Source of the DNA: Methanoregula sp.
Lineage (GTDB): Archaea; Halobacteriota; Methanomicrobia; Methanomicrobiales; Methanospirillaceae
DNA length: 6,882 nucleotides
Assembly: GCA_003136075.1 (NCBI GenBank)
Contig: PNBP01000081.1
Span: forward strand, 10,149-17,030
Direction of reading: 5' to 3'
The position numbers and the translations under genes are program-made. Shown here in pieces: positions 1 to 4,940 of the stretch; the first letter of the stretch is position 1; each line of letters begins with the position of its first letter. The notes below the pieces were generated by a model. That model worked only from the letters and a program-made list of their open reading frames with translations, did no database searches and was not told the DNA's origin.

Positions 1-115
1 ACTACAAGTAAAAAACCCCGACGAAGCAACCCGGCGACCCCTATCATGATGGGGCAAACTCACCATGCCCCTGAGTACGATGAGTGCCGCCTCACCTGTC
101 CATTCAAAGTACACT

Positions 116-220
116 GCCCGACCCCCTCCATCAACTTACCCCCATTCCCCGGCAATTTCACCATCGTAAAATAGCACCAGTTTTGTCCTTATTTTGGCCG
201 GGCTCATGAGGGGGTCGGGC
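116..220. repeat. 13-bp perfect inverted repeat with a nested 6-bp repeat
   Basis: GCCCGACCCCCTC at 116-128 is exactly complementary in reverse to 208-220. Inside it, CCCGGC (148-153) pairs with GCCGGG (197-202). The outer arms are 79 nt apart. As RNA this could fold into a two-level stem of about 105 nt on either strand. I see no target-site duplication at its ends and no transposase, so a structured RNA or regulatory element fits better than a miniature transposon. The repeat is certain, but its function is unknown. Confidence 0.75.
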
Positions 221-223
221 GGG
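200..223 (+). other. Canonical G-quadruplex motif
   Basis: The + strand has four G-runs: 200-202, 210-214, 217-219 and 221-223. The loops between them are 7, 2 and 1 nt, which meets the usual G3+/N1-7 pattern. It overlaps the right arm of the 116-220 inverted repeat, so quadruplex and stem would compete. It directly abuts a TATA-like patch at 224-231. The motif is seen directly, but folding in the cell is inference. Confidence 0.6.
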
Positions 224-494
224 TATATTATGAAAACAAGTACCATGAGCGATCATTAAAACCATTATATTTCTGATGTGAACTTCCCGGACACGCCATT
301 CCGCAAGGGATCGGTTTGTACCCGTCCGACCCTTCATCACCCTTGACCCGGAGACCCACGGCAGGAGCAGACCTGTTCGCACTGCCTATGAGCGATGCCT
401 CATGGAATCGCCCTGCAAAAATCCACACAGAGACGCGATTGGCAGGGTGATACCGGAAAATTGTAAAATCCCATGAATGGATCGCTGACTCCGG

Positions 495-508
495 GAAAAG
501 CTTAAACA
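495..508 (+). promoter_or_regulatory. Putative TATA box for the small lipoprotein gene
   Basis: An A-rich stretch followed by CTTAAACA lies about 25-30 nt before the ATG at 533. That is the spacing expected of an archaeal TATA box when transcription starts at or next to the start codon. No Shine-Dalgarno sequence precedes the ATG, so a leaderless or near-leaderless transcript is plausible. The match to the archaeal TATA consensus is only moderate. Confidence 0.3.
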
Positions 509-532
509 TGTCAGAACCATTCTATCTCAATC

Positions 533-901
533 ATGCAATCAGGAGGTATTGTTTGCATCATTGTTTTCTGCTTAATAATCACAGCAGCATGTATCCAGCT
601 GCCGGGTATGCATATTATTAGTAACACACCCGATCCCATTATCGGCCAATGGATTGGTGGTGAACCGCCGGCATCAGACCGGCACCTCATTTTCTATGAA
701 AACCAGACATTTTATTCCACAAACTTTTTTTTAAACAACGGGGAAACGGTTGACACCGGGAACTGGACAAAGATACATTCTGGACTCTATACAACGCAAT
801 CAGTCACCGGTGAAACAACCGACTGGGTGTATGATTCATTTTATGATTCACTGTATATGAGCAAAGTCCCCCAGATGAAATACAACCGCTATAAAGGATA
901 G
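533..901 (+). CDS. Small secreted or lipid-anchored protein of unknown function
   Basis: This 122-residue protein begins with a hydrophobic segment (about residues 6-19) ending in ITAAC, which resembles a lipobox with Cys20 as the lipidated residue. The peptide before the hydrophobic core (MQSGG) lacks the usual positive charge, so a simple membrane anchor is an alternative. The mature part starts with a PDPIIGQW segment (33-40) and alternates short hydrophobic and aromatic stretches (FYENQTF 54-60, GNWTK 76-80, YDSFYDSLY 100-108). This suggests a small beta-sheet fold like the many DPIxGxW extracytoplasmic proteins I associate with Methanomicrobiales, which have no known function. The start is fixed: an in-frame TAA at 503-505 and no other usable start codon lie upstream. 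There is no Shine-Dalgarno sequence. It is convergent with the transporter gene, with 43 nt between the stop codons and no clear terminator. I am sure it is coding, less sure of lipidation, and cannot assign a role. Confidence 0.75.
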   Translation: MQSGGIVCIIVFCLIITAACIQLPGMHIISNTPDPIIGQWIGGEPPASDRHLIFYENQTFYSTNFFLNNGETVDTGNWTKIHSGLYTTQSVTGETTDWVYDSFYDSLYMSKVPQMKYNRYKG

Positions 902-944
902 CCCGGGAGATTGTGATAGCCCGTATAATACCTGACAGTCTTCA

Positions 945-2984
945 TTATTTAGACCGGTATCCCGGCGGGGACTCTTTTTCTGCACTGATCGGCATAATAA
1001 CCGTCGTAATACCGCTGTACTGCAACCGTCGCTGTATGGCAAATGCTGTCTCGTTGTGCAGGATTTTCTGGAAGGGGTTTTCATGGCGGAACACGATCTG
1101 TCCGGTAAAGAACGTGGAATTCGGGAATTCCTGTGCGATATGTTTACAGAGAGGTACTGCCAGTCCCACAACATCAGTGCCTATATCCATACGGTAATCT
1201 GCTGCAAAGCCTGACTCACGGGCAAGATTCACGTATTTATCCAGTGCGTTTCTTGTTGATTCCGAAAGTGCCGTCATTTCAGCTGAACCCTTGAATGTTC
1301 CTGAATCAACGACGGCAATAGAAACAAATATAAAATTATCATAGACCCCGGGGAAATTTTTCGTTATGGAATAAAACGTGTTGACGCCCAACCCATGAAA
1401 CCCGGAAACGAGCTGCACTGCAGTCATTTTATGGGGATTCACGGGATCGGTATTCTTACTACCGGTTGTGGGTATAATTTCAAGCAGGGTATCTAATTTT
1501 CTCAACCCTCGCGTTATCGTCTGGTAATGTTCATGGATCAGGAAACAGAGTCCTACAAGGGCAGCTGTCAGAAATAGCGTGAGCCAGCCACCCTCGCCAA
1601 TCTTTTCATAGATGGTGATAAGGAGAATTGTACTGCACAGGACAAACCCGATGATATGGATGAGGATGTGTCGTTTCCAGTTCGTTTCTGTTGCCCTGTT
1701 TTTGTAAAAGAACCGTGCCATACCGAACTGGGATAGGGAAAACGTGATGAACACGTTAATGGCGTACATGGTGACGAGAAAGACTATCGACCCGTGTGAA
1801 AAGATCATGAGCAGGAGGGCCGATCCGCCCATCAGGATAATTCCATTTGTCATCGTAAGGCGTTCTGACAGGAGTGCAAATGACCGGGGGAGCCATGAAT
1901 CGATTGCCATATTTGCCATCACCCTGGGCCCGTCTATGAACCCGGTCTGGGCCGCGACAAAGAGCAGGGCCCCCTCAGAGAGGATGGTAACCAGTGCGAG
2001 GACTCCCCCCAGAGGCCAGCCACCAAAGACTTGTGTTGCAAGGACCGCATTGAGGGTCTGTCCCTGGACCGGGTGAATGTTCCAGAGGAGATAACACAGA
2101 AAGAGACCACCGGAAAGCACGGCAAGTGAGATTGCCATATATCCCATCGTCCGCTTTCCGGTCCTCACCTTGGGCTCCCGCATGATCTGCATACCGTTTG
2201 CAACTGCTTCAATACCGGTATAGGTCCCGCCACCAAGCGAATAGGCGCGTAACAAAATGGCCAGAACGCCAATCATCCCCACCGTAGCCAAATCGTAGGA
2301 GAGTCCCGACTGAAATCCTGCAGCAACCACGGCAACCCGGGGAGCATGAGCAAAAATCCCATACCCGAGAAGCAGTGCATGGGCGATGATGAACACGAGA
2401 AATATCGGGGCAAGCGTCATGACGGATTCCTTGACCCCCCGCAGGTTCAATTCAATCAGGATTACGATGAGCAGGCAGGCGACAGCCAGTTTGAACGGTT
2501 GGTACGAATAGGGTAAAAACGAGAAGATGGCATCGGCACATGCCGCGATGGAAACCGTGATGGTCAGCATGTAGTCGATAAGAAGTGCGCTTCCGGATAT
2601 GACACCTGCCCGCTGGCTGATCGTGTGGGTGGCGACGATATACCCCCCACCTCCTCCAGGGTAATGTTCGATAATGCGGGTGTAGGCATACGAAATAATA
2701 AAGACAGTGAATGCGGTGCCAAATGCGAGGAAAATCGCGAGATACGTATGCTCGCCCAGTGCAAGAAACGCTTCAGGAGGCCCGTAGGAGGAGGATGATA
2801 CGCCGTCAGCCCCAAGGCCGATCCAGGCAAGAACGGGAATTAAGGCAATCTTATGGAATATCGTAGGGTCATCAATATTCTTCTTGGCGCCAATTATGGT
2901 TCGGCGGGCACCTGCCCGGATATCCTCCCAGTTCCACGAGTCTTTTTGTCCCACGGTATCTTCTTCCGGCAGCCGGACAGGCAT
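945..2984 (-). CDS. KimA/YdaO-type APC-superfamily transporter, probable potassium-proton symporter
   Basis: This 679-residue membrane protein has about 12 transmembrane segments (roughly residues 45-485) and a soluble C-terminal domain (about 495-679). It follows Bacillus subtilis KimA along its whole length, including the C-terminal ILHNETAF segment (641-648). Compared with KimA from memory, the ion-site residues are all present: Asp60, Tyr67, Asp137, Thr141, Ser145, Thr256, Glu259 and Tyr407, matching KimA D36, Y43, D117, T121, S125, T230, E233 and Y377. This favours proton-coupled potassium uptake over the amino-acid transport that automatic annotation would give. In KimA the C-terminal domain is cytosolic and the protein is controlled by cyclic di-AMP; whether that holds here is unknown. 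The N-terminus is about 25 residues longer than KimA. The ATG at 2984 has no Shine-Dalgarno sequence, and a GTG at codon 11 is an alternative start. A hairpin lies 12 nt upstream of the ATG. The gene is divergent from the PAS operon. Family is confident; substrate is inferred. Confidence 0.85.
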   Translation of the reverse strand: MPVRLPEEDTVGQKDSWNWEDIRAGARRTIIGAKKNIDDPTIFHKIALIPVLAWIGLGADGVSSSSYGPPEAFLALGEHTYLAIFLAFGTAFTVFIISYAYTRIIEHYPGGGGGYIVATHTISQRAGVISGSALLIDYMLTITVSIAACADAIFSFLPYSYQPFKLAVACLLIVILIELNLRGVKESVMTLAPIFLVFIIAHALLLGYGIFAHAPRVAVVAAGFQSGLSYDLATVGMIGVLAILLRAYSLGGGTYTGIEAVANGMQIMREPKVRTGKRTMGYMAISLAVLSGGLFLCYLLWNIHPVQGQTLNAVLATQVFGGWPLGGVLALVTILSEGALLFVAAQTGFIDGPRVMANMAIDSWLPRSFALLSERLTMTNGIILMGGSALLLMIFSHGSIVFLVTMYAINVFITFSLSQFGMARFFYKNRATETNWKRHILIHIIGFVLCSTILLITIYEKIGEGGWLTLFLTAALVGLCFLIHEHYQTITRGLRKLDTLLEIIPTTGSKNTDPVNPHKMTAVQLVSGFHGLGVNTFYSITKNFPGVYDNFIFVSIAVVDSGTFKGSAEMTALSESTRNALDKYVNLARESGFAADYRMDIGTDVVGLAVPLCKHIAQEFPNSTFFTGQIVFRHENPFQKILHNETAFAIQRRLQYSGITTVIMPISAEKESPPGYRSK

Positions 2985-3274: not shown

Positions 3275-3312
3275 CCGGTTGTTGTGTGGCGGGGGAAAGA
3301 TGACTATACATT

Positions 3313-3320
3313 CATATAAT
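3313..3320 (+). promoter_or_regulatory. Second TATA-like box for the PAS operon
   Basis: CATATAAT lies 56 nt upstream of the PAS-gene ATG. It would give a short leader of about 30 nt that still includes the GAGGAG ribosome site at 3365-3370. It is less perfect than the upstream CATATAAA and lacks an adjoining palindrome. Confidence 0.3.
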
Positions 3321-3364
3321 CAAAAGGAGAATCCCTTGCCAGCAGAGATGCCCCCGGGGTTAAT

Positions 3365-3370
3365 GAGGAG
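3365..3370 (+). promoter_or_regulatory. Ribosome binding site that fixes the PAS-gene start
   Basis: GAGGAG ends 5 nt before the ATG at 3376. An in-frame TGA at 3364-3366 rules out any earlier start, so this site and that ATG define the N-terminus. It is one of the few strong Shine-Dalgarno sequences in the window. The lipoprotein and transporter starts have none. Confidence 0.7.
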
Positions 3371-3375
3371 AACAC

Positions 3376-4386
3376 ATGACTGGACAACCAAACGACAATG
3401 CTGCCTGCATTGAAGCAAACTTCCTTGATAATGCACTCGTGATGATAGCTGTCCTTGAAAAAGAGGGCAAAATCGTCTCATGGAACCATGCGGCAGAAGC
3501 GATCACAGGGTATTCATACGATGAAGTGGTGGGAAAAACCACAGTCTGGAAACAGCTGTACCCGGACAAAGATTACCGGGATAGTGTTACCGCAAAAATC
3601 GCATCAATCCTCTCTACAAAAAATTATTTTGAAAATCTTGAAACCATCATCCGCACCCGGTCCGGGGATTCCCGCATCATTCTCTGGAATACCAAAAAAA
3701 TTACGAATATGGGCCTGCCAAGGACCATCTCAGTTGGTCTTGATGTTACGGAACAGCGGAGGGCAGACCAGTTCCGCGAAAGCGTGATCGACAATGCAAA
3801 TATCCTGATTGCGGTTCTTGACAAAGGTAAAGTCATTGTCTGGAACAAGGCCGCAGAAACCATCACCGGGTATTCACGGGATGACGTGATCGGTAAACGG
3901 GATATATGGAAATGGCTCTATCCGGATGCTGAGTACCGAAATACTGTTACCCGACAGATTATGGATATCCTCACGAAAAACCTGTTCTTTGAGAACCTTG
4001 AAACGACCATTGTCACAAAATCCGGTGAAAAGAAAATTATTGCATGGAACACACGGCAGATCGCTAACGGGAAGGCACAGCAGGATATCGCCATCGGCCG
4101 TGACATCACCGAACGAAAACGAGCTGAGGAAGCCCTTCTGTCCTACATGACGGAAATGGCGATGAGGTTAAAGGGGCCCATCGAGATCATCCGGAATAAT
4201 CTGCAGGATGTAGCCGCGCTCGTCCGGAACGGAAAACTCGAACTCGATGATATGGCGATCGTGCTTGACAGCCAGGTAAGAAATGCCAACCAGATCGCAC
4301 AAAACGTCATTGAGTTCCAGCGGGCGGTAACTGAGAAGAACAAGGATATTCCCGAAGCCTACCGGAAATTCCTTGAGGGTGAATAA
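3376..4386 (+). CDS. Tandem-PAS sensor protein with a degenerate kinase-like tail
   Basis: This 336-residue soluble protein has two PAS domains (about residues 13-130 and 134-251). They are about half identical to each other with a repeat unit of about 120 residues. Shared landmarks are DNA, WN.AAE.ITGYS, LYPD, FENLET and WNT. Each ends in a TEQRRA or TERKRA linker of the kind that normally joins a PAS domain to a histidine-kinase core. The remaining 85 residues (252-336) are predicted helical. MAMRLKGPI (261-269) aligns with the MSHELRTPL box of a HisKA domain, with Met263 at the phosphoacceptor His position. No HATPase domain follows, and the reading frame ends normally at TAA. It therefore probably senses a ligand or redox state and signals by protein contact rather than phosphotransfer. 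There are no membrane segments or haem-binding motif that I can see. It is the first gene of an operon, 2 nt before the KaiC-like gene. The PAS assignment is strong; the function is inferred. Confidence 0.85.
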   Translation: MTGQPNDNAACIEANFLDNALVMIAVLEKEGKIVSWNHAAEAITGYSYDEVVGKTTVWKQLYPDKDYRDSVTAKIASILSTKNYFENLETIIRTRSGDSRIILWNTKKITNMGLPRTISVGLDVTEQRRADQFRESVIDNANILIAVLDKGKVIVWNKAAETITGYSRDDVIGKRDIWKWLYPDAEYRNTVTRQIMDILTKNLFFENLETTIVTKSGEKKIIAWNTRQIANGKAQQDIAIGRDITERKRAEEALLSYMTEMAMRLKGPIEIIRNNLQDVAALVRNGKLELDDMAIVLDSQVRNANQIAQNVIEFQRAVTEKNKDIPEAYRKFLEGE

Positions 4387-4388
4387 CA

Positions 4389-4940
4389 GTGACCGTTATT
4401 GTCAACCCTGATGCACTGGCACAAAAGCAGATCTTTTTGATCCTTGCGTCCCCGGGAAACATACGGGAGCGCAATATCCAGATCATTAAGGAACTCTCGG
4501 CGCTTGGCTATCATTCGGCAGTCATCACGACAAATTTTCCGTACAGTATCCTGAAGAAACTGTATGAGCAGAGCGGGGTCGATCTCACAAAGGTGTCCTT
4601 TGTGGATGCCGTCACGAGAAATTCCATCGGCAGTGTGGAAAATGTACCCGGTGTTGTCCGGTATATCAACAATCCTGCCAACCTGACGGATATGGGGATT
4701 GCAGTAACCGAAATGCTCAAGGAACACCAGGGACAGAAGGTCTGCATCCTGTACGATTCCATCAGTACAATGCTCATATACCTCTCATCACCCAATATAT
4801 CGAAATTCATCCACTTTGTGACGAACAAACTCCGGCTCATGGATATTTCAGGGGTGTTTCTTGCGGTGGAGAAAGGACTTGACCCGATGCTGATGACCCA
4901 GCTGACCACATTTGTCGATTCCGTGGTTGACACGGGATAA
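4389..4940 (+). CDS. KaiC/RecA-like signalling protein lacking a Walker A loop
   Basis: This 183-residue soluble protein has alternating strands and helices. IFLILASPGNIRERN (15-29) sits where the P-loop of a RecA-like ATPase would be but lacks GxxxxGKT. VCILYDSISTMLIYL (118-132) is a Walker-B-like strand. It is followed by helix SKFIHFVTNKLRLMD (138-152), the strand GVFLAVEKG (155-163) and a final TTFVDSVVD (173-181). This is the layout of the archaeal KaiC-like proteins linked to signal transduction, here without visible ATP binding. Translation starts at GTG 4389, with GGTGA (4378-4382) 6 nt upstream, inside the end of the PAS gene. Only 2 nt separate the two genes, so translational coupling and a shared role with the PAS protein are likely. 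I place it in the superfamily by pattern, not by search, and cannot name the exact family or partner. Confidence 0.7.
   Translation: MTVIVNPDALAQKQIFLILASPGNIRERNIQIIKELSALGYHSAVITTNFPYSILKKLYEQSGVDLTKVSFVDAVTRNSIGSVENVPGVVRYINNPANLTDMGIAVTEMLKEHQGQKVCILYDSISTMLIYLSSPNISKFIHFVTNKLRLMDISGVFLAVEKGLDPMLMTQLTTFVDSVVDTG

Follow-up and report, generated by a model that had tools for sequence, protein, structure and literature searches.

Background

In Caulobacter, the pseudo-histidine kinase DivL retains a catalytic-type domain and works with CckA, and we know of no KaiC-fold partner for it. In cyanobacteria, SasA is an active kinase whose thioredoxin-like domain makes the contact with KaiC, itself an active ATPase. 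In archaea, nonenzymatic histidine kinase (HK)-like proteins that have HisKA but no HATPase have been described in Archaeoglobi and Methanomicrobia (Galperin et al. 2018, PMC5847659), as have inactivated KaiC-like domains (iKaiC), which in the part of the same paper available to us include DUF835, MEDS and HalOD1-iKaiC, given there after Makarova et al. 2017. Here we analyse two adjacent open reading frames, ORF1 and ORF2, in a stretch of 6,882 nucleotides (nt) of Methanoregula sp., hereafter called the window (G000:C68:10149-17030). The window comes from a draft genome of 2.16 Mb that is 82.9% complete, and most named relatives of its proteins are recorded under Methanoregula (Methanomicrobiales). 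ORF1 encodes a sensor that ends in a predicted helical hairpin and ORF2 a protein predicted to have the KaiC fold. We think it fairly probable that ORF1 and ORF2 make up a conserved unit that likely serves signalling, with the hairpin docking a dead KaiC-fold protein and the signal being relayed by conformation.

Layout of the two genes

3376..4386, + strand: ORF1, a sensor protein of the form PAS-PAS-helical hairpin, 336 amino acids (aa), ATG start (ORF calls, Pfam, TIGR00229, AlphaFold2 (AF2) model)
4375..4382, + strand: Shine-Dalgarno-like GAGGGTGA for ORF2, within the 3' end of ORF1 and 6 nt before the GTG (sequence reading)
4389..4940, + strand: ORF2, a DUF7504 protein with a predicted KaiC fold and without Walker A, 183 aa, GTG start (ORF calls, Pfam, fold search)

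A first-pass annotation of this DNA had described two genes 2 nt apart with overlapping translation signals. This was confirmed: the spacing is 2 nt, both genes are on the + strand, and GAGGGTGA lies inside the end of ORF1.

Pairing of the hairpin with ORF2 across Methanomicrobiales

The hairpin and ORF2 form a constant pair with a bicistronic layout; the two co-occur in genomes, are co-inherited, and are joined to sensors that differ. ORF2 relatives were gathered from 19 contig loci, the flanks of 80 matches in the order, and the window, which gave 101 distinct ORF2-like ORFs; once three broken or cut ones (L011:2 and two frames of L021) were set aside, 98 full-length ORFs remained. A hidden Markov model (HMM) of the hairpin, built solely from ORF1 relatives, matched the gene directly upstream, in its C-terminal part, in 90 of the 98. 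Measured from the stop of that gene, the nearest candidate ORF2 start is at -4 to +24 nt in all 90 pairs. A hairpin is found upstream of ORF2 in L010:5489, L056, L130 and L131 (domain E 9e-10 to 7e-6) and, marginally, in L098 (0.002). In L016 (5968-7781) and L058 (3375-5246) the order is reversed, with ORF2 first and the hairpin gene directly downstream, and adjacency is kept. L127 has a full-length ORF2 with no hairpin partner beside it.

When 100 Methanomicrobiales genomes were searched, a strong ORF2 was present in 47, and all 47 carry the partner domain, so that the co-occurrence which the first-pass annotation had proposed to look for across the order was indeed found; 49 genomes have neither. 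The layout is no chance event because it recurs across 47 of the 100 genomes, in 15 genera and 6 families. Up to 7 ORF2 matches occur in one genome, and 103 of 109 adjoin a hairpin. The remaining six are a 39-residue fragment, the orphan lineage L127/L184/L185, L182, and L183, which has a weak hairpin partner (1e-4). In the phylum, DUF7504 scores over its cut-off in 174 of 294 genomes and the hairpin is found in 33, of which 30 are in Methanomicrobiales and the three outside are marginal (1e-4 to 9e-4). A search of the class with the ORF2 profile gave Methanomicrobiales genomes only among the matches listed, the 49 rows without a match being left off the list. Judged at this sensitivity, the pairing seems to have been invented within Methanomicrobiales, where about half of the sampled genomes have it.

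A conserved third gene was sought: a same-strand gene lies within 80 nt downstream in 11 of 82 cases and upstream in 19 of 84. The nearest neighbours, of which 106 of 166 were scanned, are diverse (HATPase_c 8, Response_reg 6, then mostly housekeeping, among the best 25 of the 117 families matched), and among them no gene was found regularly beside the pair.

Variable sensors and co-inheritance

Over the whole protein, the mean column identity of the 90 partners is 9%, and it is 44% for the hairpin (45 diverse rows) and 41% for ORF2 (71 rows). PAS_9 is found in 72 of the partners, Response_reg in 8 and GAF in 5, and 22 partners have at least two hydrophobic segments. In 18 pairs of modules the hairpins share at least 42% and the ORF2 proteins at least 50% identity, and the sensors have no detectable similarity.

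Ten short partners were scanned, and nine have no sensor family over the cut-off; all nine have 3 or 4 hydrophobic segments. A membrane-type N-terminus of about 120-140 aa stands ahead of the hairpin in L057, L059, L060, L061, L063, L064, L066, L079 and L085. Termini of the L057 type, which have 3-4 hydrophobic segments and match no Pfam family over cut-off, are possibly an undescribed membrane sensor.

The dependence between ORF1 and ORF2 was measured as co-inheritance, since 90 pairs are few for covariation and co-inheritance confounds it. Between the hairpin and ORF2 distance matrices the correlation is 0.61; when partners were shuffled within genomes it was 0.38 +/- 0.05, and none of 2000 shuffles was as high as 0.61. 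Blind re-pairing within 21 genomes was correct in 54 of 54 cases, with 21 expected. These results show that duplicated modules travel as units, which is not in itself proof of binding. A rough NG86 dN/dS against seven relatives was 0.05-0.23 in the 17 of 21 comparisons yielding a value, with dS saturated, and points to purifying selection.

The hairpin of ORF1 lacks the phosphoacceptor His

3397..3750, + strand: PAS domain 1, about residues 8-125 (Pfam, AF2 model)
3763..4137, + strand: PAS domain 2, about residues 130-254 (Pfam, AF2 model)
4138..4365, + strand: C-terminal DHp-like hairpin without His, residues 255-330 (profile and alignment of partners)
4162-4164, + strand: M263, the aligned His position, followed by R264 and P268 (profile comparison with HisKA)

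The phosphoacceptor His, the HATPase and the P-loop are absent in the members of the pair that were examined. The PAS pair of ORF1 is recognized by TIGR00229 (E 7.7e-36) and by Pfam PAS families, and the two domains, which are 54% identical over 110 aa, look like internal duplicates. No Pfam match to HisKA or HATPase_c was found in ORF1 up to E 1. Thus, Pfam, TIGR00229 and the alignment at M263 confirm the first-pass annotation's description of a gene with two PAS domains, no HATPase and no phosphoacceptor His. That description named PAS domains only, whereas residues 245-321 are predicted to form a two-helix DHp-like hairpin. The AF2 model, part of the structure prediction that had been suggested for each protein, has PAS-PAS and then the hairpin, with helices at 245-284 and 290-321 (mean predicted local distance difference test score 84, predicted template modelling score (pTM) 0.57). 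It had also been stated that both folds normally work by ATP-dependent chemistry. PAS domains themselves make no use of ATP, so for ORF1 the claim of lost catalysis depends on the absence of HATPase together with the hairpin.

The last approximately 76 residues after the PAS domains match no Pfam family above its cut-off. The first helix of the hairpin contains EMAMRLKGP. When the hairpin profile was compared with 22 HisKA domains from related genomes (hhalign), the two aligned in register over 65 columns with one gap (probability 29%, E 6e-4), placing M263 at the phosphoacceptor His, R264 at the acidic residue after it and P268 at the H-box Pro. None of the 90 partners has His in the aligned column, where the residues are M 37, L 35, V 5, I 4, A 3, R 3, S 2 and K 1, and the Arg and Pro columns are invariant in 90 of 90. 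Three columns before the His column, Glu is found in 87 of the 90 and His in 2. In 120 close relatives of ORF1 the motif position is M in 118 and L in 2. At 1e-5, neither HisKA nor HATPase_c was matched in any of the 90 partners, and HATPase_c is absent from the 14 families found there; one scanned partner scored 16.4 bits against Pfam HisKA (cut-off 26.9). A fold search with the whole ORF1 model returned PAS proteins, including LOV-PAS-HK of Brucella. When the PDB was searched with the hairpin profile, the only matches were helical proteins that are designed or seem unrelated.

ORF2 is a protein of predicted KaiC fold without a P-loop

4446..4472, + strand: place of the missing P-loop, residues 20-28, ASPGNIRER (by eye against the GPPLxGKR loops of relatives)
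4740..4760, + strand: Walker-B-like strand and D123-S124 (D in 95 and S in 92 of 101 aligned rows)
4812..4814, + strand: H142 (His in 100 of 101 aligned rows, gap in the other)

ORF2 matches DUF7504 (PF24336) at 37.2 bits, above the cut-off of 27; its match to DUF7090 is weaker and below cut-off, and that to DUF835 (18.1 bits) is below the cut-off of 33.1. The protein is predicted to have the KaiC / RecA-superfamily fold, with about 10-17% identity to solved KaiC chains in the fold search. Sequence searches of the PDB with ORF2 or its profile gave nothing credible, and the fold search alone was informative. The first-pass annotation had claimed a Walker-B-like core and no Walker A loop, and both hold: D123-S124 is present and the P-loop is absent. 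The site of the missing loop was placed against the three of seven DUF7504 relatives that have GPPLxGKR, and the profile alignment begins inside the loop. Homologues of ORF2 with a P-loop at the same place had been named beforehand as evidence against a module without catalysis. The Walker A motif GxxxxGK[ST] was found in none of the 98 full-length relatives, searched over the whole sequence, and in none of 120 close proteins. With a predicted KaiC fold, a lost Walker A and a sensor gene alongside, ORF2 would be classed as an iKaiC.

Two further loci concern KaiC-like proteins. The ORF2 copy in L182, 1659-2567 (-), has no readable hairpin gene upstream, and Arg stands in it at the place of the near-invariant His (KFIHF). 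One may take this as no more than a hint that the constraint relaxes without a partner, because the partnerless L184 keeps the His. In L186, on contig C103 of the same genome as the window, two KaiC-like proteins of at least 233 aa and 235 aa are encoded in tandem (2-700 (-) and 697-1404 (-)), and by eye neither has a GK[ST] loop. Proteins related to the one of 235 aa recur within Methanomicrobiales, and a gene that by eye resembles undecaprenyl-diphosphate synthase lies in the vicinity (3287-4057).

Proposed mechanism and alternative explanations

We propose that the interchangeable sensors share a C-terminal His-less hairpin that is likely derived from the DHp domain of a kinase. The hairpin, presumably a dimer, would dock ORF2, and ORF2 would stand in, in trans, for the absent catalytic domain. 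The state of the sensor would then alter what ORF2 can bind, and the signal would be conformational, with neither phosphotransfer nor ATP hydrolysis. P-loop KaiC-family ATPases, histidine kinases and response regulators of the same cell are candidate targets only. The first-pass annotation had suggested a non-enzymatic sensing and scaffolding module, or else a modulator of kinases and KaiC ATPases encoded elsewhere; of this, a conserved module without catalytic motifs is well supported, but the constant element of the partner is the His-less hairpin and not the PAS domain. More tentatively, the pair may be regarded as an order-wide "phosphate-free two-component system" in which a dead KaiC-fold protein replaces the catalytic domain of the kinase in trans and, together with the His-less hairpin, serves as a universal plug-in output that reads PAS, GAF, receiver and membrane sensors by conformation alone. 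If docking of this kind takes place, the loss of catalysis in both halves would be a conserved design rather than decay, and a widespread, defined pair would be at hand for how sensors without HATPase and inactivated KaiC proteins of methanogenic archaea signal. DUF7504, a family without described function, would gain a partner domain specific to it. As 8 of the 90 partners carry a receiver domain, a phosphate-free output could perhaps take its input from classical phosphorylation.

Several observations weigh against docking of ORF2 by the hairpin. Linked genes can be co-inherited, which gives a mirror-tree signal without binding, and no hairpin-ORF2 fusion was found among the 90 pairs examined. 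The C-terminal tail of ORF1 has lower confidence in the AF2 model, and the pTM of the model is 0.57. Kinship of the hairpin to HisKA has weak support and is likely but not proven: the alignment score was 22.97 where column shuffles reached a maximum of 22.46 (mean 10.8, 0 of 60 higher), and Pfam HisKA was matched by 8 of 45 hairpin rows with a best E of 0.0014. Nucleotide could still be bound without a P-loop because the Walker B Asp is mostly retained. The lineage of L127, L184 and L185 has no partner beside ORF2, and the L182 copy has no readable one. Conversely, 35 of 139 hairpin matches have no strong ORF2 beside them (e.g. L162, L163, L165, L166 and L173) and 4 of the 100 genomes carry the hairpin without a strong ORF2, so the hairpin may have other partners. 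We fetched 19 of these 35 lone hairpins and re-found the hairpin in 16; none of the 16 has His at the motif position, and in three Lys replaces the motif Arg. An ORF2 from another locus may be shared by such proteins, or a different partner may serve them.

These lone hairpins would also fit the view that the hairpin protein modulates real histidine kinases elsewhere, as a non-catalytic dimerisation partner or in a phosphatase-like manner, with ORF2 as an accessory stabiliser. The hairpin is in register with HisKA, the genome of the window has 9 HisKA matches, and phosphatase activity has been suggested for HK-like proteins without HATPase (PMC5847659, section 7). We nevertheless consider this unlikely: all 90 partners lack the HisKA His and have Arg in place of the acidic residue that follows it, HATPase_c occurs in just 8 of the 106 scanned neighbours, and the nearly constant ORF2 partner is left unexplained.

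A second explanation, to which we give the same weight as to kinase modulation, is that ORF2 is a sensor-controlled poison subunit or regulator of P-loop KaiC-family ATPases that mixes into KaiC-like rings. It would fit the predicted fold, and the same genome encodes KaiC-superfamily proteins with an intact P-loop (e.g. L256 and L257), but no KaiC family is among the best 25 of the 117 families matched in the neighbours, identity to solved KaiC chains is low, and the ring interface is hypothetical.

Somewhat less likely again is that ORF2 binds a nucleotide or other small ligand without Walker A, which would make the module a switch gated by a ligand instead of a relay through protein alone. 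The near-invariance of D123, S124 and H142 speaks for it, as do the GPPLxGKR loops kept in three of seven DUF7504 relatives from other families of the phylum. Against it are the absence of GxxxxGK[ST] throughout the 98 relatives and 120 close proteins and, at what we take to be the site of the KaiC catalytic Glu, the reading TTNxP.

Random joint decay of one kinase gene and one KaiC gene in this genome would account for catalytic motifs missing from both proteins, but it can be dismissed given the same state in 47 genomes of the order, the low if rough dN/dS and the invariant residues in hairpin and ORF2. The first-pass annotation had argued against decay from both halves degenerating together; decay is indeed disfavoured, but the losses are a state shared across the order and not a joint degeneration here.

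Other genes in the window

945-2984, opposite strand to ORF1 and ORF2: amino acid permease gene

Genes for a NusG/Spt5 protein and FtsZ lie downstream of ORF1 and ORF2 on the opposite strand, and nothing links these or the permease to the ORF1-ORF2 unit. A small ORF of 122 aa at 533-901 (+) begins, by eye, like a signal peptide or lipoprotein, and no family matched it convincingly.

Comparison with known systems

The HK-like proteins of Galperin et al. share with ORF1 the sensors, a C-terminal HisKA-like domain (presumed to dimerise in ORF1), the lack of HATPase and the archaeal class (PMC5847659). They are described with the conserved His, whereas the ORF1-type partners lack it in 90 of 90, and the P-loop-less KaiC-fold gene found alongside here has no counterpart mentioned in section 7 of that paper. 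The iKaiC proteins share with ORF2, which matches DUF835 weakly, a KaiC fold thought to be dead as an ATPase and a tie to archaeal signal transduction. In the tables of PMC5847659 available to us the iKaiC examples are mostly fusions with REC, PAS or HalOD1, which tables devoted to response regulators and output domains will tend to favour; unlike those, ORF2 stands as a gene of its own, with a hairpin partner dedicated to it. Within DUF7504 at large ORF2 is a member above cut-off, the hairpin partner is nearly confined to Methanomicrobiales, and a GPPLxGKR loop remains in three of seven aligned members from other families of the phylum (probably haloarchaea). DivL, from the parts of PMC4211667 and PMC5361649 available to us, is likewise derived from a histidine kinase and signals without kinase action, and SasA-KaiC (PDB 6x61) likewise couples a sensor kinase to a KaiC-fold protein.

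DUF7504 and DUF7090 were not found in the literature searched. The first-pass annotation knew of no described system of this kind. The literature searched did not contain the pairing of a His-less hairpin with a constant KaiC-fold partner that lacks the P-loop, though Makarova et al. 2017 may cover part of that pairing; the ingredients had been described in archaea. As far as the available part of PMC5847659 goes, both HK-like proteins without HATPase and inactivated KaiC are known, and what appears to be new here is their combination.
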